Positions 24,508-57,832 of a DNA stretch of 64,000 nucleotides are shown here, piece after piece. The DNA lies in NCBI RefSeq assembly GCF_900108505.1, contig NZ_FNWU01000003.1, positions 124,001-188,000 of the forward strand, read 5' to 3'. Below the pieces are notes generated by a model. It did no database searches and was not told where the DNA came from. It saw only the letters and a program-made list of their open reading frames with translations. Numbering within the stretch: the stretch's first letter is position 1; each line of letters begins with the position of its first letter. The translations under genes and the position numbers were made by a program. The stretch comes from Halopenitus malekzadehii. Lineage in GTDB: Archaea; Halobacteriota; Halobacteria; Halobacteriales; Haloferacaceae.

Positions 24508-24616
24508 GAGGCGCCATTACCACCCATGTGTGAAAACTGTTCGGGGGAGCGTGGGCGATGGTGGGGGTGGTGGATGAATCCGGGTGCTGGTGACCGAGAC
24601 CGGCGCCAGGCGCGGA

Positions 24617-25963
24617 TCAGGCGACGATATCGCGGAACGTCTCGAGGTCGGCGTCCTCGAGGGTCCGGATCGTCTCCGCGAGGTCGTCGACGCGCTCGGG
24701 GTCGAGTCGGGTCTCGGCACATTCGCGGAACTTCGCCTGAAGCCGCTCCTCGCTGACCGGGTTGTTCGGGCTGCCCGGAGCGTACTGCATCTCCCCGCGA
24801 AGGCTCTCGCCGGACGTGGTGGTCACGCGGACGATGGCACCGTATCCCGCGAACTCCTCGTCGAACAGGTTCTCCTCGAACGCACGCGACACCATCGAAA
24901 CGGCCTCCTTCGTCGCCGGCTCCTGGACGTACTCGTCGGTGAACTCGTGAATGCCGGCGTCGCCCTCACGGAGCACTGCGGCGAGGCAGAACTCGATGGA
25001 GAACTTCGCCTGCAGGGCGTTATCCGGCTGTTCGTGGTGGAGCATCTCGCTGGCCGCGTCGTCGAGGGTCACGACGACGTCCTCGACGGTCTCGGGCGAG
25101 AGGTCGTGTTCCTGGACGAGATCGCGCATCGCGTCCATCGCGGCGTGGGTGATCACGCCGGACGGATACGGCTTGAACCCGATGTCGGGGACCGCCCAGT
25201 CCGAGCCGAGACCGTCGGTGATCTCGGCGGGGTCGTAGGCGTCGTCGATCGTCATCACGCGGTTGTAGCCGATCTTCCCCTCGAGGATCTCGGTATCGGC
25301 CGTGAATCCGGAGCGAGCCAGCAGCGCGGCCCGAACGCCGATCTGTGCCGCGTGGCCGGCGTGGAGCGGCTTCGTCATCGTTCCGAAGTTCTTCTTCAGC
25401 GCCGAGGAGCCGGAGGCGACGATCCCCAGCGCGTTAGGAATCGCGTCGCCCTCGAGGTCCAGCACCGTCGCCGCCGCGGCAGCAGCACCGAACGATCCCG
25501 CGGTGCCGGTGCTGTGCCATCCGTTCTGGTAGTGTTCGGGATACGTACTGTGACCGACCCGGTAGGCGACCTCACAGCCGACGACGTAGCCGGTGAGGAG
25601 GTCGGTACTCGAGGCGTCGACCTCGTCGGCGGCGGCCAGCGCCGCCGAGAAGACGGGTGAGGTCGGGTGGATCACGATCGACTCGAAGGTGTCGTCGTAG
25701 TCGACGGCGTGGCCGAACGCCCCGTTCGCGAGCGCGGCGGCCGGCGCCGACCGCGGCTCACGGGCATACACGGTCGCCTCCCCGTCCCCGCCGTGGGCGT
25801 CGACGTAGTCGTAGATCGTGTCGCCGAGTTCGTGGTGGGCCCCGAACAGCGAGACCCCGACGTTGTCCATGATCGCGGTCTTGGCGTGATCGAGTACCGG
25901 ATCCGGGATGTCGTCGTAGGTCGTCGACTCGATGAACTCACAGAGTACGGCTGTTTCTCCCAT
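24617..25963 (-). CDS. MmgE/PrpD family protein, copy 1
   Basis: 448 residues from MGETAVLCEFIESTTYDDIP. The family includes 2-methylcitrate dehydratase, cis-aconitate decarboxylase and iminodisuccinate epimerase, all acting on di- or tricarboxylates. Active-site stretches are present: FGHAVDYDDTFESIVIHPTS (acidic residues and HP), FGTMTKPLHAGHAAQIGVRA (Lys and His), and GFKPYPSGVITHAAMDAM. The C-terminal half has YAPGSPNNPVSEERLQAKF. It is closest in motifs to copy 2 (31473-32852) and differs clearly from copy 3 (40555-41931). A UspA gene and an MFS permease lie upstream. Exact reaction unknown. Confidence 0.88.
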   Translation of the reverse strand: MGETAVLCEFIESTTYDDIPDPVLDHAKTAIMDNVGVSLFGAHHELGDTIYDYVDAHGGDGEATVYAREPRSAPAAALANGAFGHAVDYDDTFESIVIHPTSPVFSAALAAADEVDASSTDLLTGYVVGCEVAYRVGHSTYPEHYQNGWHSTGTAGSFGAAAAAATVLDLEGDAIPNALGIVASGSSALKKNFGTMTKPLHAGHAAQIGVRAALLARSGFTADTEILEGKIGYNRVMTIDDAYDPAEITDGLGSDWAVPDIGFKPYPSGVITHAAMDAMRDLVQEHDLSPETVEDVVVTLDDAASEMLHHEQPDNALQAKFSIEFCLAAVLREGDAGIHEFTDEYVQEPATKEAVSMVSRAFEENLFDEEFAGYGAIVRVTTTSGESLRGEMQYAPGSPNNPVSEERLQAKFRECAETRLDPERVDDLAETIRTLEDADLETFRDIVA

Positions 25964-26044
25964 ACCCGGGAGTCGCCGTCCGGTCACATTAGCGTTTCGT
26001 TGTCACGGATCACGGTCGACGAGCTGACACCGGTTGCTCGTCGG

Positions 26045-26440: not shown

Positions 26441-26596
26441 ATCCGGTATCGACAGGGCGGACCATAATAACGGTTGGGGGTAGCTGTCGGAGAGCCCGTC
26501 CTCACGACGCCGATCGGATCCGGTAAGACCCCACAGAAACCGAAGAGGTAAACCGGCGTGCGAGAAATCCGTCGCGAAGGAGTCACACACAGTACA

Positions 26597-27874
26597 ATGG
26601 TCACCCGGAATCTCGCGAAGCGAGCGGGAACCGTCCGCGATCGCCTTGCCTCCTATGAGGTCGTGTTGTTGATCTCGGGGATCTGGTTCCTCGTGCAGGG
26701 GCTTCGATACCTGTTCCCGCCGCTGTTCGATACGTTTCAGACGACCTACGGCGTCTCGAACACCGAGACCGGACTCCTGTTTACGGCGCTGCTCATCGGG
26801 TACTCGATCGTCCAGTTCCCGGCGGGGACGCTCGCGGACCGTGTCAGCGAAGCCAAGATGATCGCCGGCGGCGCGGCGGGGTTCGCGGTCGCGGCCCTGA
26901 TCGCGGCCAGCGCCCCGACGTTCCCGACGCTTGCCGGATCGGCGGTTCTGATCGGGCTCACGACGGGGATCCACAAGACCGTCGCGATCCCGTACCTCTC
27001 CCGAACGTACGCCGAACGGAAGGGATTCGCCATCGGGGTGATGGACACGATCGGCCAGTTCGGCGGCGCCGCAGCACCGCTTTTCATCGCCGTGATATTG
27101 GTATCGGCGCTCCCGTGGAACGTCGCCTTTCTGACGGGGGCGGCGGTGAGCGCCGCGTTCGCAGGGCTGTTCTACGTCCGGGTGGTTCGGCGCGAAGCCC
27201 CGGTGGGGATCGTCGACGACGACGGCGACGACGACGTGCAGGGCGTCGAGGATGACGACGTGCAGGGCGTCGAGGATGACGAAGGGGTGGACGTCGAAGA
27301 CGACGAGGACGTCTCCTACAGGGAGATCTTCTTCAACACCAAGTTCCTGCTGTTCGTCCTCATCGTGATGGCGTACACCTTCGCCTGGAACGGGTTCACC
27401 TCGTTTCTGCCGCTGTTCCTCATCGACGCAAAGCCCCTCGCGGACGAGACCGCGAGCCTCGTGTACAGCCTCCTGTTCGTCGCGAGCCTGACGCAAACCG
27501 CGACCGGCTGGATCAGCGATCGGCTCAGCCAGGTGAACATTATGTTGAGTCTGTTGTCCGTGATCGTCGTCGGCCTGACGCTGATACTGTTCGTCGACGG
27601 CGTGTGGGCCCTCGGCGGGATCACGTTGCTGATCGGGATCGGGTTTCACGGGTTCAGGCCCGTCCGCGATGCACATCTGATGGAACTCATCCCGGAGTCG
27701 ATTCGTGGCGGGACGTTCGGGATCGTCCGGACGCTGATGACCGCGGTCGGGGCGATCGGGCCTGCCGCGGTCGGATACATCTCCGACGTGAGCGGCTACA
27801 TCGCGGCATTCTCCTTCCTGAGTGCGGTCCTCGCCGGATCGGTGGTGCTCATCATCGTGATGCGATCAGCGTGA
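26597..27874 (+). CDS. MFS transporter 1
   Basis: 425 residues from MVTRNLAKRAGTVRDRLASY; the frame continues 13 codons upstream but lacks a better start. Twelve membrane segments can be drawn, with the MFS motif between segments 2 and 3 (GTLADRVSEAKMIAGG) and a related sequence after segment 8 (TGWISDRLSQVNIML). The central cytoplasmic loop is highly acidic and was lengthened by a 24-bp tandem duplication (two VQGVEDDD copies). It is divergent from the UspA and MmgE/PrpD genes, suggesting uptake of a small acid. Substrate unknown. Confidence 0.88.
   Translation: MVTRNLAKRAGTVRDRLASYEVVLLISGIWFLVQGLRYLFPPLFDTFQTTYGVSNTETGLLFTALLIGYSIVQFPAGTLADRVSEAKMIAGGAAGFAVAALIAASAPTFPTLAGSAVLIGLTTGIHKTVAIPYLSRTYAERKGFAIGVMDTIGQFGGAAAPLFIAVILVSALPWNVAFLTGAAVSAAFAGLFYVRVVRREAPVGIVDDDGDDDVQGVEDDDVQGVEDDEGVDVEDDEDVSYREIFFNTKFLLFVLIVMAYTFAWNGFTSFLPLFLIDAKPLADETASLVYSLLFVASLTQTATGWISDRLSQVNIMLSLLSVIVVGLTLILFVDGVWALGGITLLIGIGFHGFRPVRDAHLMELIPESIRGGTFGIVRTLMTAVGAIGPAAVGYISDVSGYIAAFSFLSAVLAGSVVLIIVMRSA
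27230..27277 (+). repeat. 24-bp tandem duplication in MFS transporter 1
   Basis: Two identical 24-bp units, 27230-27253 and 27254-27277, encode two copies of DDVQGVED in the cytoplasmic loop. The reading frame is kept. Confidence 0.9.
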
Positions 27875-28742: not shown

Positions 28743-29945
28743 ATGCTTCAGAGAGACACCGTCAAGCTCACCGATCAACAGCGATTGGTACGTGACTCGA
28801 TACGCGACATCTGTTCGGACTTCGATGCGGCATACTGGCGCGAGCAGGACGCCGAGGGCGAGTACCCGCAGGAGTTCGTCGACGAGCTCGCCGCCGGCGG
28901 ATGGTTCGGCGCGCTGCTCCCGGAGGAGTACGGCGGCGCCGACATGGGCACCGAGGAGGTCGTGGTGATGATGGAGGAGATCGCGGCCTCCGGCGGCGGC
29001 TTCAGCGCCGCACAGTCCGTCCACGGCGCGATCTACAACTCCGTGCCGATCGTCGAATACGGCAGCGAGGAGCTCAAATCCGACCTCCTCCCCGCGGTCG
29101 CCAGCGGCGAGACATCGATCCAGGCGTTCGGCCTCACGGAGCCGAACGCGGGTTCGGACTCGACATCGATCGAGACGCGTGCCGTCCGCGACGGCGACGA
29201 CTACGTCATCAACGGCCAGAAGATCTGGATCTCGCGGGTCGACGCGAGCGACTACCTCGTGTTGATGGCCCGAACCACGCCGAAGGAGGACGTGGAGAAG
29301 CGAACGCGCGGGCTCACGATGTTCCTCGTCGACCTCGAGGACGCCTACGACCAGGGCGGCCTCGAGATCGAACGGATCGACAAGACGGCCAGCAACTTCG
29401 TCCACTCCTATGAACTGTTCTTCGAGGATCTCCGGGTTCCCGCCTCACACGTGATCGGCGAGGAGGGCGAGGGGTTCTATCAGATGCTCGACGGCCTCAA
29501 CGAGGAGCGGCTCGTGATCGCCGCCGAGTGCATCGGGCTCGGAGAGGCCGCGATCGAGGCGGGCGTCGAGTACGCGAACCAGCGGGAGGTCTTCGACCGG
29601 AAGATCGGTTCGAACCAGGCCATCCAGCACCCGCTGGCCGAGGGGCACGCACACGTCCAGGCGGCGAAGGGAATGGTGTACGACGCCGCCAGCGTCGTGG
29701 ACGACGAAACGGATTCCAAGAGCGTCGGCGCCCGCGCGAACATGGCGAAGTTCCTGGCCGCGAAGGCCGCCTTCGAGGCCGCCGATGCCGCCGTCCAGAC
29801 CCACGGCGGGTTCGGCATCGCGCGGGAGTACGACGTGGAACGGTACCTCCGTGAGGCACGTCTCACGCGGCTGGTTCCGATCACGCAGGAGCTCGCGTTG
29901 AACTACATCGGCGAAAACGTTCTCGGGTTGCCACGATCGTACTGA
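28743..29945 (+). CDS. Acyl-CoA dehydrogenase
   Basis: 400 residues from MLQRDTVKLTDQQRLVRDSI. It is a flavoprotein of the ACAD family: LLPEEYGGADMGTEEVVVMM near the N-terminus, FGLTEPNAGSDSTSI (FAD/substrate loop), VINGQKIWISRVDASD, and the C-terminal THGGFGIAREYDVERYLREA. The usual catalytic Glu of the medium-chain type near the C-terminus is replaced (RLVPITQEL), but a Glu at 255 in NEERLVIAAE fits the isovaleryl-CoA dehydrogenase position. A branched acyl-CoA is therefore a reasonable substrate, for example methylsuccinyl-CoA or isovaleryl-CoA. The stop overlaps the CoA-transferase start by one base, indicating an operon. Confidence 0.93.
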   Translation: MLQRDTVKLTDQQRLVRDSIRDICSDFDAAYWREQDAEGEYPQEFVDELAAGGWFGALLPEEYGGADMGTEEVVVMMEEIAASGGGFSAAQSVHGAIYNSVPIVEYGSEELKSDLLPAVASGETSIQAFGLTEPNAGSDSTSIETRAVRDGDDYVINGQKIWISRVDASDYLVLMARTTPKEDVEKRTRGLTMFLVDLEDAYDQGGLEIERIDKTASNFVHSYELFFEDLRVPASHVIGEEGEGFYQMLDGLNEERLVIAAECIGLGEAAIEAGVEYANQREVFDRKIGSNQAIQHPLAEGHAHVQAAKGMVYDAASVVDDETDSKSVGARANMAKFLAAKAAFEAADAAVQTHGGFGIAREYDVERYLREARLTRLVPITQELALNYIGENVLGLPRSY

Positions 29946-31396
29946 TGAGGGACCGCATCACCGGGGATCCCCCGCGCCTCTCAGCGACCGAGGCGGCCCG
30001 CGAGGTCGGCGACGACGACACGCTGCTCGTGAGCGGGTTCGGCAGCGTCGGCTACCCGAAGGTCGTCCCGCTCGCGCTGGCGGAGTCGGACCGCGATCGA
30101 TCCCTCACCGTGGTGAGCGGCGGGAGCGTCGGGCCGGAGATCGACGACGCGCTCGTCGAGGCGGGAGCCCTCGAGCGGCGGTTTCCCTACCAGGCTCGCG
30201 CGACGTCGCAGGCGGCGATCAACGACGGTCGCGTCGCCTTTCACGACAGGAACATCAGCACGCTCGGCGACGAAGTCCTCTACGGTGACCTGGCCGACGG
30301 CGACGTCGCGATCATCGAGGCCCTCGCGGTAGGCCCTGACTGGCTGATCCCGACGACCAGCATCGGACAGACGCCCGCGTTCGTCGAGAACGCCGACCGG
30401 CTGATCGTCGAGGTCAACCGGACGGTCCCCCGGGACGTCCGTGCGTTTCACGACGTCTATCGGACGGGACGGCCGCCGAACCGGGAGCCGATCCCGCTGC
30501 GGGATCCCGGTGGCCGGATCGGCACCGACCGCGTCACGTTCGCTCCCGAGTCGCTGGTCGGGGTCGTGGAGTCCGACCGTCGGGATCAGCCCTACGAATT
30601 CCGCGATCCGACGGCCGACGACCGCGCCATCGCCGACGCGCTCCGGACGTTCCTCGAGGCCGAAGTCGAGCGGTCGCCGCTGTTCCGGGACTCCCTGCGG
30701 ATCCAGTTCGGGGTCGGCAGCCTCGGGAACGCGCTGATGGGGGCGCTCGGCGAGGCCGACCTCGGCGATCGCGAGTTGATCTACTTCGGAGAGGTCATCC
30801 AGGACGGCCTCCTCGACCTGCTCGACGACGGGGACCTGGCGACCGCCAGCGCGACCTCGCTCGCCCTCTCCGCAGAGGGGCAAGACCGGCTGTTCGAGCA
30901 CGTCGACCGGTACGCCGAGGACATCGTGCTCCGCCCGGCGGACCTCTCGAACAGCCCGACGCTGATCGACCGGTTCGGCGTCGTCGCGGTGAACAGCGCC
31001 CTGGAGGTCGATCTCTTCGGACACGTGAACTCGACGCACGTCAACGGAACGCGAGTGTTGAACGGCGTGGGTGGAAGCGGCGATTTCAACCGCAACGCGG
31101 CGTTGACCGTGCTCGCGCTCCCCGCGACCGCGGCCGACGGCGACATCTCCCGGATCGTCCCGATGACACCCCACGTCGACCACACCGAACACGATATCGA
31201 CGTCGTTGTCACCGAACAGGGCGTCGCGGACCTCCGCGGGGCATCGCCGCGGGAAACCGCCACGGCGCTCATCGAGAACTGCGCGCATCCGGCGTACAGG
31301 GACGACCTGCACGAGTACCTCGAACGCGGCGAGCGACGCGGCGGGCACATCCCCCACGACATCGAGACGGCACTCGACTGGCACGTCGATCGGTGA
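29945..31396 (+). CDS. Acetyl-CoA hydrolase/transferase family CoA-transferase (succinyl-CoA:acetate/propionate type)
   Basis: 483 residues. The ATG at 29945 overlaps the previous stop. Motifs match the Cat1/AarC/ScpC group: LSATEAAREV, GFGSVGYPKVVPLALA near the N-terminus, and VNSALEVDLFGHVNSTHVNG with the catalytic Glu, then GVGGSGDFNRN. IVPMTPHVDHTEHDIDVVVTE closes the second domain. These enzymes move CoA between succinyl-CoA or acetyl-CoA and short carboxylates. With the dehydrogenase upstream and an MmgE/PrpD and MaoC gene downstream, it probably activates the carboxylate that the dehydrogenase then oxidises. Exact acceptor unknown. Confidence 0.9.
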   Translation: MRDRITGDPPRLSATEAAREVGDDDTLLVSGFGSVGYPKVVPLALAESDRDRSLTVVSGGSVGPEIDDALVEAGALERRFPYQARATSQAAINDGRVAFHDRNISTLGDEVLYGDLADGDVAIIEALAVGPDWLIPTTSIGQTPAFVENADRLIVEVNRTVPRDVRAFHDVYRTGRPPNREPIPLRDPGGRIGTDRVTFAPESLVGVVESDRRDQPYEFRDPTADDRAIADALRTFLEAEVERSPLFRDSLRIQFGVGSLGNALMGALGEADLGDRELIYFGEVIQDGLLDLLDDGDLATASATSLALSAEGQDRLFEHVDRYAEDIVLRPADLSNSPTLIDRFGVVAVNSALEVDLFGHVNSTHVNGTRVLNGVGGSGDFNRNAALTVLALPATAADGDISRIVPMTPHVDHTEHDIDVVVTEQGVADLRGASPRETATALIENCAHPAYRDDLHEYLERGERRGGHIPHDIETALDWHVDR

Positions 31397-31472
31397 TCGC
31401 GGACATCGGGAGGACGCATACGCTGCATCGTGACACGGTAACGATTTACTACCCCGGGACGTATCGCTATGT

Positions 31473-32852
31473 ATGTCACCGACGTCACCGGAGCAACGGA
31501 TCGGATCGTTCGTCGCCGACCTCGAGTATCGCGACGTCCCGGACGAGGCGATCGAGACGATCGAACGGGCCGTTCTCGACACGATCGGGGTCACGCTCGC
31601 GGGCGCGGTCGCGCAGGTTGGACGCGCGACGACACGATCAGACGGTCCCGATCCCGACACGGCGGACGCCGCATCGCTGCTCGGACTCGACGCATCGGCG
31701 TCGCCGGCGGAGGTCGCCCTCCGGGTTGGAACCGCCAGCCACGCGCTCGATTACGACGACCTCTCGTGGGCGATGGACGGGCATCCGAGCGTCACGCTCG
31801 TGCCGGCGCTGTTTGCACTCGCCGACGCGGAGACGAGCGGACAGGACTTCATAACGGCGTACGCCGCCGGGTTCGAGACGGAATGCGCCGTCGCCGAGCC
31901 GATCAGCCCGGCACACTACGAGCGCGGCTGGCACGCCACCGCGACGTTCGGGACGTTCGGGGCGACCGCGGCGGCGGCACACCTCCTCGGGCTGGACGCC
32001 GACCGGACCGCGACCGCACTGTCCATCGCGGCCTCGACGGTCGCCGGGCTGAAACGGAACTTCGGATCGATGACGAAACCGCTCCACGCCGGGCTCTGTT
32101 GCCGGTCGGGCGTCACTGCCGCCCGCCTGGCGCGCGACGGGCTCTCGGCCGACGCGACCGCGGTGAGCGGTGACGGCGGGTTCTGGGATCTGTACGGCCC
32201 CGCAGGGAGCGAGGACGACGGTGTGGACGCCGAGGCCGGCGACGCCGACGCGTTCTCGATCGGCGACCGCTGGCGGCTTGCGGAAGTGGGTATCAACGCC
32301 AAGGCGTACCCGTGCTGTTATTTCACTCACACGGCGATCGCGGCGACACAGGACATCCGTGACCGGGAGTCTCTAGATCCCGAAACGATCGAGGACATCA
32401 CCGTCACCGCGTCACCGGGGGCCGCCGACGCGTTGAGCCATTCGGACCCGACGACGGGATTGGAGGCGAAGTTCTCCATGGAGTACTGCGTGGCGAGCGC
32501 TGCGGTCCGTGACCGCGTCGCCCTCGGAACGTTCGACGACGACGCGATCGACGATCGGGCCGTCCAGCGCGTTCGCGAGCGCGTCACGCATCACACTGAC
32601 GCCGACCTTGCCTACGACGCACACGCGTCCACGGTGCGGATCGAGACCGACGACGGGGCGACCTACCGCCGGGAGCTGGAGCGACCGCCGGGAACACACG
32701 ACGATCCGCTCTCGGCCGCGGCGTATCGCCGAAAGTTCATCGACTGTGCCACGGTCGTGCTCGAGGAACCGGTCGCCGCCGAGTTACACGACGTCTTCAC
32801 GTCGCTGGCGAGCGTCGAGTCGGTTCCGACGGCGATCGCCGCGGCGGAGTAA
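31473..32852 (+). CDS. MmgE/PrpD family protein, copy 2
   Basis: 459 residues from MSPTSPEQRIGSFVADLEYR. An AT-rich element (cgatttacta) about 30 bases upstream fits a leaderless start. Active-site regions are SHALDYDDLSWAMDGHPSV, FGSMTKPLHAGLCCRSGVTA and NAKAYPCCYFTHTAIAATQ; these closely parallel copy 1. An acidic insertion (SEDDGVDAEAGDADA) is near residue 250. The neighbours (CoA-transferase, acyl-CoA dehydrogenase, MaoC hydratase) argue for dehydration, epimerisation or decarboxylation of a polycarboxylate feeding the CoA steps. Reaction not assignable from sequence. Confidence 0.88.
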   Translation: MSPTSPEQRIGSFVADLEYRDVPDEAIETIERAVLDTIGVTLAGAVAQVGRATTRSDGPDPDTADAASLLGLDASASPAEVALRVGTASHALDYDDLSWAMDGHPSVTLVPALFALADAETSGQDFITAYAAGFETECAVAEPISPAHYERGWHATATFGTFGATAAAAHLLGLDADRTATALSIAASTVAGLKRNFGSMTKPLHAGLCCRSGVTAARLARDGLSADATAVSGDGGFWDLYGPAGSEDDGVDAEAGDADAFSIGDRWRLAEVGINAKAYPCCYFTHTAIAATQDIRDRESLDPETIEDITVTASPGAADALSHSDPTTGLEAKFSMEYCVASAAVRDRVALGTFDDDAIDDRAVQRVRERVTHHTDADLAYDAHASTVRIETDDGATYRRELERPPGTHDDPLSAAAYRRKFIDCATVVLEEPVAAELHDVFTSLASVESVPTAIAAAE

Positions 32853-33069
32853 CGGTAGCCACACACGTGCCGGACAGGGGAGGGTATAGGGTTCAGGTGG
32901 CAGGGTGGCGTGTGTCGGGTGTAGGTGGCCATATCTCGGATGTAGGGTGGCGTGTGTCGGGTGTAGGACGAACAGCGTACTGGGGGACGGGACCATACAG
33001 TTATGATGGCGCGGCGGAAAGGATCCGCTGATCGGTGCCGATCAACGACCGATCGAGAGTGACGAATAT
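32853..33069. repeat. Spacer with imperfect 21-bp tandem repeats (32903-32965)
   Basis: Three 21-bp units begin at 32903, 32924 and 32945. The first and third are identical over 21 bases (GGGTGGCGTGTGTCGGGTGTA) and the middle one is diverged. The repeats start about 50 bases after the MmgE/PrpD stop. No gene is supported. Confidence 0.8.
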
Positions 33070-33645
33070 ATGACGACCACGGATACCGACGACGATTCGG
33101 ACGCGCAGGACAGGGAACTGATCGCTGGGTGGCATGGACGCTACTACGAGGACTTCGCGGTCGGGAACGTGTACAAACATCCGTTCGGCCGGACGGTCAC
33201 CGAGACCGACAACGTCTGGATGACGAACGTGACGATGAACCTCAACCCGATGCACTTCAACGAGGCATACGCCGCCGAGACGGAGTTCGGCGAACGCCTG
33301 GTCGACGGGACCTTCGTCATCGCGTTAGCGGTCGGGATGAGCGTCATCGACGTGTCGGTCAACGCGACGGCAAACCTTGGCTACGACAACGTGCGCCACC
33401 ACAACCCAGTCTTCCACGGCGACACGCTGTTCGCCGAAAGCGAAGTGCTCAGCAAGCGCGAGCTCGAATCCCGCGACCACGTCGGGATCGTCGAGACTGA
33501 ACTGCGAGCGTACAACCAGAACGACGATCTCGTGTTGAGCCTGGAGCGAACCCCGATGGTTCTCAAACGCGAACACGCCGATCCGAGCGCCGCGACCCCG
33601 CCGGGATGGCCCGAGGGGATCGGGACACAGCCCAAGGATCTCTAA
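33070..33645 (+). CDS. MaoC-domain hydratase, mesaconyl-CoA hydratase (beta-methylmalyl-CoA dehydratase)-like
   Basis: 191 residues from MTTTDTDDDSDAQDRELIAG. The hot-dog MaoC fold carries NLNPMHFNEAYAAETEFGERL, with the family Asp replaced by Asn and the His kept, then ANLGYDNVRHHNPVFHGDTL and FAESEVLSKRELESRDHVGI. This block resembles mesaconyl-CoA hydratase of the methylaspartate and 3-hydroxypropionate cycles closely, as I remember those sequences. It would hydrate mesaconyl-CoA (or itaconyl-CoA) to a methylmalyl-CoA-type product. With the acyl-CoA dehydrogenase and CoA-transferase this suggests a C5-dicarboxylate pathway. A haloarchaeon with a methylaspartate cycle may carry another copy elsewhere. 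Confidence 0.82.
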   Translation: MTTTDTDDDSDAQDRELIAGWHGRYYEDFAVGNVYKHPFGRTVTETDNVWMTNVTMNLNPMHFNEAYAAETEFGERLVDGTFVIALAVGMSVIDVSVNATANLGYDNVRHHNPVFHGDTLFAESEVLSKRELESRDHVGIVETELRAYNQNDDLVLSLERTPMVLKREHADPSAATPPGWPEGIGTQPKDL

Positions 33646-34038
33646 CCACGTCGAGGGCGCGGCGACCGGCAGATGGGGACCCGTTTCAGCACTGTGGGGG
33701 GTGGAGCCGCCAACCGCAACGAGCAACCGAAGCGGAGCGACGGGAGTGGGTAGGACTGGGTGGATTACCCACCGAACCAGCCACCACAAGAGCCAGTCAT
33801 AAAGTAGTGATATCGACAGTTATATTTATATATCGACATATATTCTGACGGGTGAAAAATCGTGGAGATGAGGGGTTTCGGTGGTGGGCAGATATCGGTA
33901 TCACGGAATAGACTGCCGAGATCGACACAATACGGCCACTAATCGGGGCGGAAACGATCGAAGCCGTCCGTCACGATCGAACGAGAGCAGCGGAGACGTG
34001 ACTCTGTAACGTCGTCACCAGCCGATATATCAATTGAG

Positions 34039-34062
34039 TATTTCTATTTGAATATAGAAATA
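34039..34062. promoter_or_regulatory. Nine-base inverted repeat upstream of the tct operon
   Basis: TATTTCTAT (34039-34047) and ATAGAAATA (34054-34062) pair perfectly around a six-base spacer. The site is about 350 bases before tctC in an AT-rich spacer; a regulator-binding role is inference. Confidence 0.35.
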
Positions 34063-34373
34063 GTGGAGAAGAGCACCGGCTTCCGGAACCGGTCACACGT
34101 CGCTATCTGTCGTCCATCGTTCCCTATCAATCTCCCATTCATCGCCCCCTGTTCGGTTGACCATACCATCGGCGATCGTCCATCTCCACCACTGCGATCG
34201 TCCATCTCGATCACTTTTCCGTCGACCATCGGCGAGCGATGGTCACCAGCCATCGACGTCGGCACCAAATTGACGTCGGCGTCCGGTCATAGCGGCCGTG
34301 CTGATCGGTCATCTCGCGGCCGTCGATCCAAAGCGGCTCCGTCGGCAAAGTATGTCAAATAAAGTCAAAAACC

Positions 34374-34381
34374 CTTTTAAT
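34374..34381 (+). promoter_or_regulatory. TATA box of the tct operon
   Basis: CTTTTAAT lies 28-35 bases before the tctC ATG at 34409, consistent with a leaderless or nearly leaderless transcript. Confidence 0.5.
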
Positions 34382-34408
34382 CGGGTGTGGGTATGTTATG
34401 GATGCACC

Positions 34409-35590
34409 ATGAAACGTGTTAATAGACGGCAAGTCCTGAAATCAGGCCTTGCGACTGGGACGGTCGGACTGGTTGCCGGATGTACCGGCAACGGAAACGG
34501 CAGCGGCAATGGCAACGGTGGCGGCAACGGAAACGGCGGCGGCAACGGCGACGGAAACGGTGGCGGCAACGGCGACGGAAACGGTGGCGGCAACGGCGAC
34601 GGAAACGGTGGCGGCAACGGCGACGGAAACGGTGGCGGCAACGGTGGCGGATCTGACTTCCCCTCCGAGCCCCTAACCGGCGTCGTCGCGTACTCCGAGG
34701 GTGGCGGTGTGGACCGCGAATTCCGTCAGATCCAGCCGTACTTCACCGAGGAAGTCGGCGTCGAGGTTGCTCCCGAGTATATCGCCGGTGCCGGAACGCG
34801 GCGCGGCGTTCGGACCGTGCTCGAAGCGGACAGTCTCCACACGTATGGGATGGTCGCGACGCCGGAGGCCGGCGCGGCGGTCGCCTTCGACGACGCTGAG
34901 GGAACCGACACCGGCTACGGCGTTGAGGATATGATGCCGATCGGGAACCACGTCAGCCAGATGTCCATCCTCCGCATCCGGGAGGACGAGGACCGCTTCT
35001 CGACGATCGAGGAGCTGGTCGATTACGCGGCGGACAACGAGATCACCGTCGGTGCCTCCGGCCCGACGAAACGAAACATGCTGGCGAACATCAAGCTGGC
35101 CGAAGCCACCGAGGCCTCGTTCCAGTACGTCCCCTACGACGGCGGCGGACCGACGCAGACCGCGCTGTTGCAGGGTGAGATCGACGTTGCCAACCGCAGC
35201 GTCTACAACAGCCTCGACATCATCGAGGATTCCCAGTGTATCGGCGTCTTCTGGGACGAGAACCGCTGGCCCGAGCTGACCGACGACGCCCCGCCGGTCA
35301 ACGAGGCTCTCGGCACCGACATCGACTTCGCCGGGACGGTCGGTCGATACTTCTGGTTCGTCAGCGCGGCCCTGGCGGACGAGAATCCCGACCAGTTCGA
35401 CCACCTCGTCGAGTCGTTCCAGGCGGCGATGGAAAGCGACGAGTACATCTCCCAGCTCGAGGGCGGCGACTACGACGAATCCGGCAAGCTGGACTACATG
35501 GGTCCCGAGGCGACGCTGGAGGCGAACATCGGAGACTACGAGACGTACCAGGAGTTCATCCCCCTGTTCAACGAGTACGTCCAGAACTGA
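34409..35590 (+). CDS. tctC: TctC-type substrate-binding lipoprotein of a tripartite tricarboxylate transporter
   Basis: 393 residues from MKRVNRRQVLKSGLATGTVG; upstream in-frame codons are rejected because the Tat signal must be N-terminal. Twin arginines (R6-R7) and a lipobox LVAGC (Cys25) make it a Tat-exported, lipid-anchored extracellular protein. A Gly/Asn-rich linker (about residues 26-85), expanded by four 24-bp repeats, tethers the binding domain. That domain has VVAYSEGGGVDREFRQIQPY, SGPTKRNMLANIKLAEATEA and PYDGGGPTQTALLQGEID, typical of TctC/Bug proteins that bind di- or tricarboxylates. It is first in the operon tctC-tctB-tctA. Ligand unknown. Confidence 0.92.
   Translation: MKRVNRRQVLKSGLATGTVGLVAGCTGNGNGSGNGNGGGNGNGGGNGDGNGGGNGDGNGGGNGDGNGGGNGDGNGGGNGGGSDFPSEPLTGVVAYSEGGGVDREFRQIQPYFTEEVGVEVAPEYIAGAGTRRGVRTVLEADSLHTYGMVATPEAGAAVAFDDAEGTDTGYGVEDMMPIGNHVSQMSILRIREDEDRFSTIEELVDYAADNEITVGASGPTKRNMLANIKLAEATEASFQYVPYDGGGPTQTALLQGEIDVANRSVYNSLDIIEDSQCIGVFWDENRWPELTDDAPPVNEALGTDIDFAGTVGRYFWFVSAALADENPDQFDHLVESFQAAMESDEYISQLEGGDYDESGKLDYMGPEATLEANIGDYETYQEFIPLFNEYVQN
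34537..34632 (+). repeat. 24-bp tandem repeat encoding the tctC linker
   Basis: Four 24-bp units (34537, 34561, 34585, 34609) encode GGNGDGNG repeats. The first unit differs by one base. Repeat number can vary without breaking the frame. Confidence 0.92.
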
Positions 35591-35599
35591 ACGCCGTCA

Positions 35600-35606
35600 T
35601 TTTTTT
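35600..35606 (+). terminator. T7 tract between tctC and tctB
   Basis: Seven T residues follow tctC and precede the tctB ATG by three bases. Archaeal RNA polymerase pauses or terminates at such tracts, so partial termination would give more binding protein than membrane subunits. There is no hairpin. Confidence 0.45.
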
Positions 35607-35609
35607 ATT

Positions 35610-36131
35610 ATGTCTGCCAATGAAAACGAGTCAGTAACTGAGGGTACAGACAAATTCGCGGTCGGTGAGGAGGCGATCCAGCGGCTCGTGCTCCCGACGG
35701 CAGCGCTGGTGTTGTCGATCCTCTATGTGAACAGCGTGCACGGGCGGATCTCGATGTTGAACCTCCGGTATCCGTATGCCGTCATTGGCGTGCTGGTTCT
35801 CCTCACGCTCGGCGTGTACGTACAGGAACTACGTGCGATCTGGCGAATCCGCCGAAACGAGGACCGACCGCCGTTCGTCGACTCGATAACCGACCGGGCC
35901 CACAAATGGCGGAAGTCGATCGCGCTCGCCGTGTTCGGCTTCATCTACCTGTGGTTAGTTGATTTCCTCGGGTTCTTCGTCTCCTCCACGCTCCTGATCG
36001 CGTCGCTGATGGTCGTTGCGGGGGAACGGGACTACCGACGGGTGATCCTGATCACGGTGACCGTGTTGGTCGTGATCCGGGTATTCATCAACTTCCTAAA
36101 TATGTCGCCGCCGGAGGGACTGTTCCTATGA
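35610..36131 (+). CDS. tctB: TctB-type small membrane subunit of the tripartite tricarboxylate transporter
   Basis: 173 residues, hydrophilic N-terminus, then about four membrane segments (LVLPTAALVLSILYVNSVHG; AVIGVLVLLTLGVYVQEL; IALAVFGFIYLWLVDFLGFF; VILITVTVLVVIRVFINF). TctB is poorly conserved in sequence; its place between tctC and tctA, its size and its topology identify it. Its start is 19 bases after the tctC stop, just past a T7 tract. tctA follows 37 bases downstream. Confidence 0.85.
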   Translation: MSANENESVTEGTDKFAVGEEAIQRLVLPTAALVLSILYVNSVHGRISMLNLRYPYAVIGVLVLLTLGVYVQELRAIWRIRRNEDRPPFVDSITDRAHKWRKSIALAVFGFIYLWLVDFLGFFVSSTLLIASLMVVAGERDYRRVILITVTVLVVIRVFINFLNMSPPEGLFL

Positions 36132-36168
36132 CGGGACCGCGGACCGCCCTCAGCGAGGTGATCGGCCG

Positions 36169-37686
36169 ATGACCGCGGTACAGCCGATCATCGAGGCGCT
36201 CGGCATCCTGTTCACGCCGGGGAACCTCGCCATCCTGATCGCCGGCGTCTGCGTCGGCGTCGTGGCGGGTTCGATCCCGGGCTTCACCGGCGCGAACACG
36301 GTGGCGATCGCGCTCCCGATCACGCTTCCGATGTCGCCGGCGATCGCGCTGGCGTTTATGTCCGCCATCTACATCGGCGCGAACTACGGTGGCGCGATCC
36401 CGGCAGTGCTTATCAATACGCCCGGAACCTCGGGTGCAACGGCGACCGTCCTGGACGCGTTCCCGATGTCGAGACAGGGGAAGGCGTCGAAGGCCCTCGG
36501 CATATCGATACTGGCCAGCGTGATCGGCGGGATACTCGCAGCGATCATCATCCTCGTCTTACTCGATCCCATCGGTCAGCTGGCGTTCCAGTTCACGAAC
36601 CGCGAGATCTTCGTCCTCGGCCTGTTCGGACTGGCTGCGGTGGGTGCCACGCTCGGGGAAAACCTCCGAAAGGGGCTCTTCTCGGGGTTCCTGGGCCTGC
36701 TGATCGCGGCGATGCCGATCGACCCGACGACCGGCCAGCGCCGGCTCGACTTCGGCTACTTCGCCCTGTACGACGAGGTGCCGTTCATCCCGATCATCAT
36801 CGGTGTGTTCGCGATCACCGAGCTGTTCTTCCTCATCAATCAGGATCAGATCAGCGAGGACACGTCGGTGAAGACGTCGTACTCCGGCATTCTCGAGGGC
36901 TTCAGATACGTGATCTCGCGGCCGTTCCAGACGCTTCGCGCGATGACGGTCGGACTGCTCGTCGGCTCGATGCCCGGCGCGGGGACGTCGATCGCGAACT
37001 TCGTCAGCTGGGCGATCGCGAAGCTGATGTCCTCGGATCCGTCGTCGTTCGGTGAAGGGAATCCGGACGGCGTCATCGCCTCTGAGTCGTCCAACAGCGC
37101 CGTGACCGCCGGGTCGCTGGTGCCGACGTTGGCGCTCGGGATCCCCGGGAGCGGGACGACCGCGGTGATGCTGGGCGCGCTGTTGCTCCACGGCGTCCAG
37201 CCCGGGCCGACCTTTATGCAGGATTTCGCCTTCGAGGCGAACCTGATCATCGTGTCGCTGCTCATCTCCAACGTCATCCTGTTGATATTCGCGTTCGCCA
37301 TCTCGCGATATATCGTCCGCGTGGTGTTGTTGCCGAGTCGGTATATCGTCCCGGTGATCCTCGTCTTAACGGTCATCGGCGCGTACGCGCTTCGGACCAG
37401 TATGTTCGACGCGTGGCTGATGCTCCTGTTCGGAATCGTCGGAGTCGTGATGCGGCAGAACGACTACCCGGCGGTGCCGTTGATCCTGGGCGTCGTTCTC
37501 GGTCCGATCGTCGAGAGCGCGTTCCTCAGGAGTATGCTGATCAGCGGCAACGACTACACGTACTTCTTCGAGACGACGATCGCGAACATCTTCTGGGTGT
37601 TGATCGCCGTCTCGCTGCTTGGACGCCCCCTCGCGAACCTGCTCAAGCAGGTTCTACAGCCGCGGTTCGCGGGCCTGTTCGACTGA
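36169..37686 (+). CDS. tctA: TctA-type large membrane subunit of the tripartite tricarboxylate transporter
   Basis: 505 residues with about 10-12 hydrophobic segments. Family motifs are VVAGSIPGFTGANTVAIALP near the N-terminus (the Gly-rich loop), AIYIGANYGGAIPAVLINTP, and LVGSMPGAGTSIANFVSWAI with GSLVPTLALGIPGSGTTAVM in the second half. The duplicated P-G-x-G/T loops are characteristic of TctA. Energy comes from an ion gradient, probably Na+ in this salty setting. It completes the TctCBA transporter, whose likely substrates are di- and tricarboxylates handled by the neighbouring enzymes. Confidence 0.93.
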   Translation: MTAVQPIIEALGILFTPGNLAILIAGVCVGVVAGSIPGFTGANTVAIALPITLPMSPAIALAFMSAIYIGANYGGAIPAVLINTPGTSGATATVLDAFPMSRQGKASKALGISILASVIGGILAAIIILVLLDPIGQLAFQFTNREIFVLGLFGLAAVGATLGENLRKGLFSGFLGLLIAAMPIDPTTGQRRLDFGYFALYDEVPFIPIIIGVFAITELFFLINQDQISEDTSVKTSYSGILEGFRYVISRPFQTLRAMTVGLLVGSMPGAGTSIANFVSWAIAKLMSSDPSSFGEGNPDGVIASESSNSAVTAGSLVPTLALGIPGSGTTAVMLGALLLHGVQPGPTFMQDFAFEANLIIVSLLISNVILLIFAFAISRYIVRVVLLPSRYIVPVILVLTVIGAYALRTSMFDAWLMLLFGIVGVVMRQNDYPAVPLILGVVLGPIVESAFLRSMLISGNDYTYFFETTIANIFWVLIAVSLLGRPLANLLKQVLQPRFAGLFD

Positions 37687-38043: not shown

Positions 38044-38448
38044 ATGGAGTACGACCTCGACTCGGGAGCGCACTCGACGTATTCCCTGCACTACCACCTG
38101 ATACTCACCACGAAGTATCGGCGCGGAGTGCTAACCGAGGAGCGAACCCAATTCATTCACGAGGTCATCAGCGGGTTCACGGACAACTACGGTGTCGAAC
38201 TGACAAACCTCGATGGCGAGGACGACCACGTACACATCCTGTTCCGAGCGAAACCAACCACAGACCTCGTGAAGTTCATCAACACGGTCAAGGGCGCGAC
38301 CGCCCGCCGAATCCGCAACGAGTACGCGGACGAACTGAAGACCGAACTGTGGGGAGACTCGTTCTGGAACGACTCGTACTGCCTCATCTCGACGGGGCAG
38401 GTGTCGCTGGATGTGCTGAAACAGTACGTCGAGAACCAACGCGGGTAG
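38044..38448 (+). CDS. tnpA: IS200/IS605 transposase TnpA (HUH Y1 type)
   Basis: 134 residues from MEYDLDSGAHSTYSLHYHLI. The Y1 transposase signature is complete: LHYHLILTTKYRRGVL at the N-terminus, the metal-binding HUH motif in DDHVHILF, and the catalytic Tyr in LKQYVENQ near the end. It cuts and joins single-stranded DNA at the element ends. The length is usual. No frameshift is visible, so it is probably active or recently so. Confidence 0.94.
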   Translation: MEYDLDSGAHSTYSLHYHLILTTKYRRGVLTEERTQFIHEVISGFTDNYGVELTNLDGEDDHVHILFRAKPTTDLVKFINTVKGATARRIRNEYADELKTELWGDSFWNDSYCLISTGQVSLDVLKQYVENQRG

Positions 38449-38454
38449 AGAGCC

Positions 38455-39753
38455 ATGTACTACGCCTACAAGTACCGTCTCAAGCCGTCCGATGCTCACC
38501 GCGAAGAGTTGGACCGCCACCGAGATATTTGTAGGCAACTCTACAACCATACACTCTACCGCCTCAACAAGTACCAAAACGAACACGGAGAACTGCCGTC
38601 CATGACCGCCCTGCGGTCGAAACTGCCCGACCTCAAGAAGTGGTGGGACGGCCTCTCCGACGTGTACTCGAAAGTTCTCCAAACCGTCGTGGAACGCCTG
38701 TTCGACAATCTCAAAGGGCTCTCGGCGCTCAAGGAGAACGGCTACGGCGTCGGTCAACTCAACTGGAAGCCGCCACGGGAGTTCCGCAGTTTCACCTACA
38801 GTCAGTCTGGCTTCAAGCTCGACAAGAAGGGCGGTCAGACTGTGCTGTCACTCTCGAAACTCGCAGACATTCCGATTCGGCTCCACCGACCCATCCCCGA
38901 CGACGCCACACTCAAGCAGGTCACGGTGAAGAAGGAACCGACGGGCGAGTGGTTCGCCACCTTCGGCGTCCAAATGGACCGTGAGCCGCCCGAACCGCCT
39001 GAGACTCCCGAGAAGTGCGTCGGTATCGACGTGGGGATTCTCAAGTACGCCCACGACACGGATGGTACGGCGGTCGGGTCGCTCGACCTCTCCGACGAAC
39101 GCGAACGTTTGGAACGCGAGCAACGGAAACTCTCGCGGAAGCAACACGGGTCGAACAACTACGAGAAGCAACGGCGGCGCGTTGCGGAGTGTCACGCCGA
39201 TCTCCGTCGGAAGCGCCGCGACTTCTTGCACAAACTCTCAGCGTACTACGCTCGGGAGTACGACCTCGTGGCGGTTGAAGACCTGAACGTGAAGGGGATG
39301 ATGGAGTCGCCGTCGAACAGCCGCAACACGGCGTCTGCCGCGTGGCGGACGTTTCTCTCGTTGCTCGAATACAAGTGCAAGCGAGAGGGAACGCACTTCG
39401 TCGCGGTGAATCCGCGTGGTACGACCAAGGAGTGCGCGTCGTGTGGTGTCTCGACGGAAAAGCCGTTGTGGGTCCGTGAACACTCGTGCCCGTCGTGTGG
39501 GTTCGAGGCGGACAGGGACGCGAATGCGGCGTGGAACATTCTTTCTCGCGGCCTCGAAAAAGTAGGAGTGGGATACTCCGAATCAACGTCCTCAGAATCG
39601 CGTTGCGATTCTGATGTGCGGACGAGAGCTGCGCTCTCGTCAACGCCTGTGGAGACTGCGCTCCCTGTGGATACACCTGTATCTGCAAAGCGCGTCGTGG
39701 AAGCAGGAAGCCCTACCCTCAAGAAGCGAACGGCGTCAGCCGTGAGCGAGTAG
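38455..39753 (+). CDS. tnpB: TnpB-type RNA-guided nuclease of the IS605 element
   Basis: 432 residues, starting six bases after tnpA. The RuvC residues are present: Asp in VGIDVGILKYAHD, Glu in YDLVAVEDLNVKG and Asp in DRDANAAWN. The zinc finger has ECASCGVS and SCPSCGFEA. N-terminal YYAYKYRLKPSDAHREELDR is the usual helix-turn region. TnpB proteins are guided by an omega RNA made from the 3' end of their own element, cutting donor sites so that the element is retained. The C-terminal tail (about 70 residues, Ser/Thr/Val-rich) overlaps the right end and probably encodes that RNA. Confidence 0.94.
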   Translation: MYYAYKYRLKPSDAHREELDRHRDICRQLYNHTLYRLNKYQNEHGELPSMTALRSKLPDLKKWWDGLSDVYSKVLQTVVERLFDNLKGLSALKENGYGVGQLNWKPPREFRSFTYSQSGFKLDKKGGQTVLSLSKLADIPIRLHRPIPDDATLKQVTVKKEPTGEWFATFGVQMDREPPEPPETPEKCVGIDVGILKYAHDTDGTAVGSLDLSDERERLEREQRKLSRKQHGSNNYEKQRRRVAECHADLRRKRRDFLHKLSAYYAREYDLVAVEDLNVKGMMESPSNSRNTASAAWRTFLSLLEYKCKREGTHFVAVNPRGTTKECASCGVSTEKPLWVREHSCPSCGFEADRDANAAWNILSRGLEKVGVGYSESTSSESRCDSDVRTRAALSSTPVETALPVDTPVSAKRVVEAGSPTLKKRTASAVSE

Positions 39754-40554: not shown

Positions 40555-41931
40555 TCACACGATGGTGGCGTCGACGATCGGATCGACGCGATCGAGCGAC
40601 TCCAGGTCGTCACACAGATCCACGAGCGAGTCGGTCTGATCGTCGGAGAGCAGTCCCGCGGCCTGTTCGGTGAGTTTCGCCTCGAGACGATCCCGGCTGA
40701 AGGGATTGCGAGCGTGACCGGGCGCGTGATCGAGGCGCGTCTCGTAGCGCTGGCCGTCGGCCACGATCTCGACGATGGTCGGCGTCGAATCGGGGTGTTC
40801 CTCGACGAACGCGGTGAGGTCCTCGCTGTCCTCGACGGCGACGCGCTCCATCAGGGCGTGGACGGTCGGGTCGTTGCGATGGGTGGCGTGGTAGTGATCG
40901 GGCGTGACGTCGCCGTACAGGATCGCGATGGCGGTCGTGTACGGAATGCTGTGGTCGGCGCTCTCGCGCGTGAGGTCGGTCGACCACTTCGTCTCGTCGG
41001 CCAGTATCTCCGCCGCCTCGGCGAAGGTGTGGATCACGACCTCCTCGACCGCGTCGGGATCGATGTCGTGGTCCTGAACGAGCGCCTGCACACCGGCGAT
41101 CATCGGCTGCATGTAGTAGCCACACGGGAAGGGCTTGAGGTGAGCGTCCATAATCCGGTAGTCGGCACCGTCACGGCCACCGAGCCGGTCGACCGTGAGT
41201 TCGCGATCGGCGACGACCTCGAAGAATCCCGCGGGCCCCTCGAAGACCGCCTCGGGACCGGTGATGCCGGCACGGGCCATCTGACAGGCCTGGATCCCGC
41301 CATGTGTCGCGTAGGCGGTCGCGATCCCCTTCCACATACTCACCTCGCCGCGCCGGGAGATCCCCAACGAGACGGTCGAGGCGCCGACGATCCCGATCGC
41401 GTTCCGCAGTTCGCTGCGGGAGAGCCCCATCAGCGACCCGGCCGCGACGGCGGTTGCGAGCGAGCCCCACGTCACGTAGTCGTACCCGTTGCCCCAGGTG
41501 ACGCCCGTATCGAGCCCCAACCCTTCGACCTCGTAGGCAAGAACGATCGCCCGGAGCAGTTCCATCCCGGAGCATCCCTCAGCTTGGGCCACGGACAGCA
41601 GCGCGGGAATGTGGTCGCTCGGGTGACAGGCCCGTCCCTGGCTGATGTAGGTGTCGTTGTAATCGAGGTACCGAGCCATCGTGGTGTTCAACAATCCGGC
41701 ATACTCGAGCGACGTCGGCGACCCGCTACAGAGCACGGTCGCGTCGTCGGTGCCGGCGGACCCGCCGTATATCGACCGCAGCCGCTTGCTCGGGGGACTG
41801 GTGTATCCGCCCAGACAACACCCGAGCGTGTCGAGCGTCAGTCGTTTTGCTTTCGCCTCGACCGAATCGGGGAAATCGCGGTCCGCCGTCTCCGCGGCGT
41901 ACTCGGCGAGCAGCTCGCTGGTCAGTTGCAT
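40555..41931 (-). CDS. MmgE/PrpD family protein, copy 3 (distinct subfamily)
   Basis: 458 residues from MQLTSELLAEYAAETADRDF. It is more like classical PrpD (2-methylcitrate dehydratase) than copies 1 and 2: RYLDYNDTYISQGRACHPSD near residues 86-105, then SMWKGIATAYATHGGIQACQ and HLKPFPCGYYMQPMIAGVQA. The TH that follows the P-(S/C) motif in copies 1 and 2 is absent here (MQP), so the substrate may differ. A possible TATA (rc of aatatatt, 41955-41962) lies about 25-30 bases upstream. It is followed on the same strand by the haloacid dehalogenase-like gene. Confidence 0.9.
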   Translation of the reverse strand: MQLTSELLAEYAAETADRDFPDSVEAKAKRLTLDTLGCCLGGYTSPPSKRLRSIYGGSAGTDDATVLCSGSPTSLEYAGLLNTTMARYLDYNDTYISQGRACHPSDHIPALLSVAQAEGCSGMELLRAIVLAYEVEGLGLDTGVTWGNGYDYVTWGSLATAVAAGSLMGLSRSELRNAIGIVGASTVSLGISRRGEVSMWKGIATAYATHGGIQACQMARAGITGPEAVFEGPAGFFEVVADRELTVDRLGGRDGADYRIMDAHLKPFPCGYYMQPMIAGVQALVQDHDIDPDAVEEVVIHTFAEAAEILADETKWSTDLTRESADHSIPYTTAIAILYGDVTPDHYHATHRNDPTVHALMERVAVEDSEDLTAFVEEHPDSTPTIVEIVADGQRYETRLDHAPGHARNPFSRDRLEAKLTEQAAGLLSDDQTDSLVDLCDDLESLDRVDPIVDATIV

Positions 41932-42015
41932 AGTCGTATCTCCAAGTAACTACTGATAAATATATTGGAATCGGAAACGTACGGACACGATCCCGCGTCC
42001 GTCAGCCGAAGTCGA

Positions 42016-42092
42016 TGGTCGAGGCCGCCGATCGGGACCGATGATCGAGGCCGCCGATCGGGACCGGTGATCGAGGCCGCCGATCGACCCCG
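42016..42092. repeat. 26-bp tandem repeat, three units, directly 3' of the enolase-superfamily gene
   Basis: Units at 42016, 42042 and 42068 share the core tcgaggccgccgatcgg and end one base before the stop codon of the minus-strand gene at 42093. Confidence 0.85.
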
Positions 42093-43220: not shown

Positions 43221-43294
43221 GCTCGTGTAGCAAGCACTTCCGGTATGTAAATATGAGGGGATATAAACAATATTAACCGGGATCGGCAGTCGTC

Positions 43295-53253: not shown

Positions 53254-53262
53254 ACGTATGGG
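53249..53262. promoter_or_regulatory. 14-bp perfect palindrome CCCATACGTATGGG covering the iclR2 start codon
   Basis: The dyad contains the CAT complement of the start codon (53251-53253). Binding there would block a leaderless transcript. Confidence 0.45.
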
Positions 53263-53459
53263 ACACAGGGCGTGGTCGCAAATACCTTTTCATCGATAGT
53301 GAACGACATCCCGGGATCGACGGCGGACGCGGGGGCGCAGGCGTGGCAACGCGGACGTGACTGTGCGGGCGTGCCGACGGTGGTGTGCCGCTGCGGACGG
53401 GCTCGTCCGGGGGACGCCACCGAAGAAGATATATCACGGGAGCAAGACCACCGATCGAG

Positions 53460-55133: not shown

Positions 55134-55135
55134 TC

Positions 55136-56578: not shown

Positions 56579-56673
56579 GACGACCGTCCCCACGACGGAT
56601 CCGCGGACGCCGGGTCACGCCATCCGACCACCGGAACACATATTACATCCCTGTTCGAGGGTGATCGTATCGT

Positions 56674-57828: not shown

Positions 57829-57832
57829 TCCA

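Follow-up and report, generated by a model that had tools for sequence, protein, structure and literature searches.

What pathway is encoded by seven co-directional genes of the haloarchaeon Halopenitus malekzadehii that combine enzymes of acyl-CoA metabolism with a tripartite tricarboxylate transporter (TTT)? The genes lie in the window analysed here, a stretch of 64,000 nucleotides (positions 124,001 to 188,000 of contig NZ_FNWU01000003.1) from a haloarchaeal genome of 3.1 Mb in 41 contigs with a completeness of 99.6%. All seven genes are intact and, as originally predicted, run in one stretch and one direction, on the plus strand, and their coordinates are unchanged:

28743..29945, plus strand: acyl-CoA dehydrogenase (ACAD), proposed methylsuccinyl-CoA dehydrogenase (Mcd-like); start ATG at 28743, longer GTG start possible
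29945..31396, plus strand: class-I (AarC/ScpC/Cat1-type) CoA-transferase; NCBIfam ScpC match; 1-nt overlap with the dehydrogenase stop
31473..32852, plus strand: PrpD2, an MmgE/PrpD protein (PF03972/PF19305), proposed dicarboxylate epimerase/isomerase
33070..33645, plus strand: RipB/Ich-like MaoC hydratase with a single domain, proposed to act on mesaconyl-CoA; NF038241 at 175.6 bits, below cut-off
33646..34408, strand not applicable: MaoC-TctC gap of 763 bp, from the sequence
34409..35590, plus strand: TctC-type solute-binding lipoprotein; start ATG at 34409; homologs carry annotations as binding proteins of tripartite tricarboxylate transporters
35610..36131, plus strand: TctB small permease subunit, encoded between the other two subunits; shares 28% identity with the protein annotated as TctB in Halalkalicoccus jeotgali
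36169..37686, plus strand: TctA large permease subunit; 57-60% identity to haloarchaeal TctA

The first four genes, with spacings of 76 bp between CoA-transferase and PrpD2 and 217 bp between PrpD2 and MaoC, form a module that is conserved among haloarchaea. In our judgement, this module quite probably encodes a pathway in which a short dicarboxylate is metabolised in a CoA-dependent manner. At about even probability, it degrades a 2-substituted succinate, methylsuccinate being the most likely candidate and mesaconate and itaconate possible side entries. In support of this reading, the same enzyme set has been experimentally assigned to such a route in Pseudomonas and Cupriavidus (PMC9875883, PMC12290011).

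Conservation of the module in haloarchaea

Among 294 sampled genomes of the class Halobacteria, about 91 carried orthologs of the MaoC protein, delimited by an identity of at least 73% (next matches at most 53%). Neighbouring genes were compared for 67 loci around these orthologs, which comprised the best-scoring matches and plasmid hits rather than a random sample. The commonest partner was the orthologous dehydrogenase, present within 8 kb in 46 of the 67 loci and located directly upstream on the same strand in 33. A CoA-transferase gene lay directly downstream in 45 loci; the CoA-transferases within reach belonged to class I in 37 loci and to class III in 14. An MmgE/PrpD gene was present in 33 loci, and further partners were a TAXI-TRAP transporter (24), an IclR regulator (14), a universal stress protein (USP; 14), and a short-chain dehydrogenase/reductase (SDR; 12). 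Because these partners recur across the loci, the core of dehydrogenase, CoA-transferase, MmgE/PrpD protein, and MaoC is a real conserved unit, beyond what chance would produce. In Natrialbaceae-type genomes, the dehydrogenase, MaoC, a class-III CoA-transferase, and PrpD often have an Mrp antiporter operon and a gene for dihydroorotate dehydrogenase as neighbours, and some of these loci also contain a thiolase.

Acyl-CoA dehydrogenase and CoA-transferase

The dehydrogenase shared 45-49% identity with Mcd, compared with 28-38% with the remaining three ACADs encoded in the genome. The phylogenetic comparison with Mcd suggested in the original prediction placed the haloarchaeal dehydrogenases in a clade that is sister to, and not inside, a clade of Mcd and enzymes from Rhodococcus, Thermus, Rubrobacter, and Deinococcus. 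Both clades were split from nearly all other ACADs with 99% SH-aLRT support, the only support measure of this tree, in which the outgroup branches are long and one long outside row (Polaromonas) sits at the fork. The predicted isovaleryl-type catalytic glutamate was identified as Glu255, which is present in all 30 haloarchaeal and all 22 Mcd rows, and the two groups also share a GLNxER...IAAEC motif and a C-terminal PRS(Y/F), which reads PRSY in the window.

ACADs that are 48-50% identical to the dehydrogenase are common in bacteria; therefore, similarity by itself is no proof of the substrate. The neighbourhoods of six close plasmid homologs contained a CoA ester lyase in four cases, three of which also contained MaoC, and that of an Aminobacter homolog held the complete set of MmgE/PrpD, CoA-transferase, MaoC, lyase, and electron-transfer flavoprotein. 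In a comparison of 80 genome loci with methylsuccinate isomerases (among them C. necator and many Pseudomonas), the dehydrogenase gene adjoined the isomerase gene in most.

The assignment of the second gene to the Cat1/AarC-type CoA-transferases was likewise upheld: the protein is of class I, scored 529.9 bits against the succinyl-CoA:acetate CoA-transferase model ScpC (NF053853, cut-off 500), and has 2g39 and the AarC 4eu3 series as its solved relatives. The Natrinema ortholog fell under the same cut-off (485.8 bits); thus, the CoA donor and acceptor are not fixed by the family.

MaoC hydratase and candidate lyases

The originally proposed closeness of the MaoC protein (191 aa) to mesaconyl-CoA hydratase was half right. 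The protein is about 34% identical to one half of the real haloarchaeal enzyme (Mch), which has two domains and about 358 aa, and scored 85.9 bits against the Mch model (NF041625, cut-off 560) versus 175.6 bits against the RipB/Ich itaconyl-CoA hydratase model (NF038241, cut-off 340). An orthology with Mch was rejected on the basis of the length, the score, and a tree in which the halves of real Mch are placed apart. The original prediction had also considered that MaoC might cluster with ordinary short-chain hydratases, which found no support, as the PhaJ structure 1iq6 reached 24.6 bits versus 124 and 119.5 bits for 8hgn and 4e3e, which are Mch-like structures with two domains. Judged by sequence, MaoC belongs with the small RipB/Ich-like MaoC proteins and not with Mch. 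It is the sole MaoC match of the genome at an E value of 1e-20 or better and is 49-57% identical to bacterial MaoC proteins, most of which adjoin a CoA ester lyase, as in Thermus, Rhodococcus, Amycolatopsis, and Paraburkholderia.

A search of the genome for a CitE-type lyase, which the original prediction had suggested as a means to finish the route, returned none apart from a malyl/beta-methylmalyl-CoA lyase (Mcl; NF041626, 533.9 bits, cut-off 500) on a separate 22.8-kb contig. Mcl could complete the route, yielding propionyl-CoA and glyoxylate, or acetyl-CoA and pyruvate if citramalyl-CoA were accepted. No link between MaoC and Mcl emerged from their co-occurrence (2 of 37 genomes in the family), and two sampled relatives of the genus had neither a MaoC ortholog nor Mcl. 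A CitE-like lyase is kept in 254 of the 294 haloarchaea and is often paired with a second MaoC paralog (41-47% identical to, and distinct from, the window MaoC); leucine and C5 acid breakdown are candidate roles. Since this lyase is near-universal and often stands beside the other paralog, its co-occurrence with the window MaoC was uninformative.

MmgE/PrpD proteins

The genome encodes three MmgE/PrpD proteins, all inside the 64-kb window. Besides PrpD2, these are the following two, both encoded just outside the cluster:

24617..25987, minus strand: PrpD1, with an epimerase-type active site (HYQNGWH motif)
40555..41931, minus strand: PrpD3, without the epimerase Tyr

The methylsuccinate isomerase (Msi) residues His88, His102, Tyr148, His152, Lys202, and Lys266 are kept in PrpD2, and Asp replaces Glu91. 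The HY..G(W/F)H motif is present in the haloarchaeal cluster-linked PrpDs of the compared set. As B. subtilis IRG1 also has it, this isomerase-type motif is, at the level of sequence, broader than the isomerase family. PrpD3 lacks Tyr148 and His88. The nearest solved relative of PrpD2 is iminodisuccinate (IDS) epimerase (2hp0/2hp3), with 203 bits versus at most 95 bits for decarboxylases. The predicted fold (pLDDT 84.6) gave TM values of 0.86-0.89 with IDS epimerase, 0.80-0.85 with decarboxylases, and 0.68-0.79 with full-length PrpD/MmgE chains. Although IDS epimerase is closest in both sequence and fold and retains the His/Tyr pair, its reaction partners are different and the identity in the fold alignment is 27%. 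The fold of the Pseudomonas protein PA0881 is likewise nearest to IDS epimerase according to de Witt (PMC9875883).

Because these residues and the IDS-epimerase fold are kept and the Msi clade excludes the protein, PrpD2 probably works like the isomerase without being a member of its family. Among the activities originally listed for the MmgE/PrpD step, epimerisation is the best supported, and the tricarboxylate precursor invoked there is unnecessary. A role as 2-methylcitrate dehydratase was rejected at 25.7 of 458 bits for TIGR02330 and 30.9 of 575 bits for NF006943.

Proposed pathway and known counterparts

In the proposed pathway, the acid would be taken up by TctCBA or by a nearby major facilitator superfamily (MFS) protein, and PrpD2, with His and Tyr as its two bases, would interconvert the (S) and (R) enantiomers of the free acid. 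CoA would then be transferred from succinyl-CoA or acetyl-CoA onto the acid by the class-I CoA-transferase, giving a C1 or a C4 ester. The dehydrogenase may oxidise methylsuccinyl-CoA to mesaconyl-CoA, which MaoC could hydrate to citramalyl-CoA or beta-methylmalyl-CoA, and a lyase encoded elsewhere (here, only Mcl was found) would cleave the product into acetyl-CoA and pyruvate or propionyl-CoA and glyoxylate. The order of activation, oxidation, and hydration in the original prediction, together with its guess of methylsuccinate, mesaconate, or itaconate, fits the evidence.

The original prediction had regarded the gene combination as matching no known pathway, which does not hold, as the same enzyme set occurs in P. 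aeruginosa (PMC9875883) and C. necator (PMC12290011). Deletions in P. aeruginosa showed that PA0879 is required for methylsuccinate and PA0881 for its (S) form (de Witt 2023, PMC9875883). The purified C. necator enzymes were named methylsuccinyl-C4-CoA dehydrogenase and (S)-(R)-methylsuccinate isomerase, the latter an MmgE/PrpD protein (Goenner 2025, PMC12290011), and this isomerase has been reported almost exclusively from Pseudomonadota (96.2%; PMC12290011). The bacterial clusters (PA0878-0883 and E6A55_22580-22600) resemble the window cluster in having a CoA-transferase, a MaoC-type hydratase, an Mcd-like dehydrogenase, an MmgE/PrpD isomerase-like protein, and an adjacent transporter. However, the CoA-transferase is of class III in the bacteria and class I in the archaeal host, the hydratase is of an approximately 280-aa type rather than a 191-aa RipB-like MaoC, PrpD2 comes from another clade, the transporter is TRAP rather than TTT, and the (S)-citramalyl-CoA lyase of the bacterial cluster has no counterpart in the window cluster. 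The pathway type is thus already known from bacteria, and the new part is a haloarchaeal version built of different enzyme subfamilies.

Other known systems share fewer features. In Rhodococcus rhodochrous, pGD02.2.1 carries a CoA ester lyase, MmgE/PrpD, CaiB CoA-transferase, MaoC, and acyl-CoA dehydrogenase in a single run, together with an SDR; its MaoC (49%), PrpD (38%), and dehydrogenase (44%) belong to the same groups as those of the window (38-49% identity overall), whereas its lyase and class-III CoA-transferase set it apart, and the function of the cluster is putative. The Yersinia-type RipABC itaconate cluster has a small RipB-like MaoC hydratase and a CoA-transferase of the 4-hydroxybutyrate/Cat1 superfamily, as in the window. 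It has no dehydrogenase or PrpD, whereas the window has no RipC lyase and its MaoC reached 175.6 of 340 bits. The haloarchaeal methylaspartate cycle (Mct, Mch, and Mcl) involves similar C5 chemistry, and Mcl is over its cut-off in this genome; however, the window MaoC is not Mch, and the window CoA-transferase differs from Mct in belonging to class I. Methylsuccinate is a substrate of Mct in vitro, and a role of methylsuccinate in any haloarchaeal pathway was judged doubtful (Borjian et al. 2017, PMC5592240). Full-text searches of the open-access literature on haloarchaea with methylsuccinate or itaconate turned up no account of a cluster of this kind in haloarchaea.

If the methylsuccinate assignment is correct, this would indicate that branched C5 dicarboxylates are real substrates in brines, and haloarchaea would possess a counterpart of the bacterial route assembled partly from different enzyme subfamilies, with the hydratase in about a third of the sampled genomes and the whole module in many, often on plasmids. 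The assignment also offers testable functions for uncharacterised MmgE/PrpD subfamilies. More speculatively, and in our view unlikely, the module may belong to a pathway that is widespread in haloarchaea and acts on a dicarboxylate whose degradation by archaea is not yet known. Several separate MmgE/PrpD subfamilies would then epimerise different 2-substituted succinates, and the ending (SDR/thiolase or a shared lyase) would be unlike that of the bacterial route.

Several observations weigh against methylsuccinate degradation. The CitE-like lyase of most haloarchaea was not found in this genome, no CitE-type lyase was found in any of the 67 MaoC loci or in the window cluster, and Mcl, encoded on a contig apart from the module, exceeded its cut-off in only 2 of the 37 MaoC-positive genomes of Haloferacaceae. 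PrpD2 falls outside the Msi clade, grouped with haloarchaeal proteins, and is about 28-31% identical to Msi. Furthermore, 13 of the 67 loci had no core partner at all, and an ending of the beta-oxidation type is hinted at by the presence of SDR in 12 loci and of thiolase in six loci from Natrialbaceae. We know of no source of methylsuccinate in brines.

Alternative explanations

The most probable alternative bears on the transporter alone and does not conflict with methylsuccinate degradation by the enzymes. With a probability somewhat short of even, the locus consists of two adjoining units for different substrates, namely the dehydrogenase/CoA-transferase/PrpD/MaoC genes and TctCBA with the SDR, MFS, and USP genes. 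The complete TctCBA of the original prediction is indeed present, and its genes lie directly downstream of MaoC on the same strand; however, the 763-bp gap suggests a separate transcript, and Tct genes were found in none of the 67 other haloarchaeal MaoC loci. The membership of TctCBA in the module is doubtful for these two reasons. The nearest annotated relatives, in H. jeotgali, stand beside SDR, MFS, USP, IclR, and enolase-family genes (TctA 57%, SDR 62%, and MFS 46% identity to the window), with neither the dehydrogenase nor MaoC at that locus. Against a division into two units, the bacterial versions of the pathway have a transporter alongside (PA0884-0886, PMC9875883), and a TctC-type gene adjoins mcd-msi in Cupriavidus. 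The N-terminus of TctC carries a twin-arginine and lipobox signal followed by a Gly/Asn-rich linker, which is encoded by tandem Gly/Asn/Asp codon repeats (34480-34640, plus strand). The possible second importer of the island is:

26558..27874, plus strand: MFS transporter (PF07690)

An MFS gene also adjoins the module in Natrinema, and the window protein is 46% identical to the MFS protein near the H. jeotgali TctCBA.

We consider it rather improbable, though deserving some weight, that the module acts on a different branched short-chain acid in the manner of beta-oxidation, in which case CoA transfer, dehydrogenation, and MaoC hydration would be followed by SDR oxidation and thiolysis, with PrpD epimerising the free acid. 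In several loci, USP, PrpD, dehydrogenase, and MaoC are accompanied by an SDR that shares 41-46% identity with that of the window (43295-44095), thiolase occurs in six loci and a lyase in no cluster, and a related dehydrogenase of Rhodococcus ruber adjoins SDR, thiolase, and CoA-transferase genes. However, SDR and thiolase are both absent from the majority of loci, the nearest bacterial relatives of the dehydrogenase and MaoC mostly adjoin CoA ester lyases, and the SDR of the window is encoded on the opposite strand, at a distance of 9.6 kb and past an insertion sequence (IS) element.

The least probable alternative is that itaconate or mesaconate is detoxified and used, in which case PrpD2 would either be a cis-aconitate decarboxylase or have no part in the process, and the dehydrogenase would be accessory. 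This would suit the RipB/Ich family as the nearest to MaoC and the position of cis-aconitate decarboxylase within MmgE/PrpD, but the dehydrogenase is dispensable for itaconate (PMC9875883) and yet the commonest partner (46/67), and PrpD2 is nearer to IDS epimerase than to decarboxylases (203 versus 95 bits), and slightly nearer by fold.

Neighbouring genes

PrpD1 possibly belongs to the same island as the dehydrogenase, CoA-transferase, PrpD2, and MaoC. It shares 66% identity with a Halomarina PrpD that adjoins a dehydrogenase/MaoC pair and whose cluster also has a TcuA-type tricarballylate dehydrogenase and an isocitrate-lyase/phosphoenolpyruvate-mutase family gene. In the window, PrpD1 adjoins a D-2-hydroxyacid dehydrogenase gene (23545-25987, minus strand), and PrpD3 is grouped with a mandelate-racemase/enolase-family gene and the SDR gene (40555-44095, minus strand). 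An IS200/IS605 element (TnpA with TnpB; 38044-39753, plus strand) lies immediately 3' of the Tct genes, and genes of a 2-oxoacid dehydrogenase complex adjoin an IclR regulator at 52495-58801.

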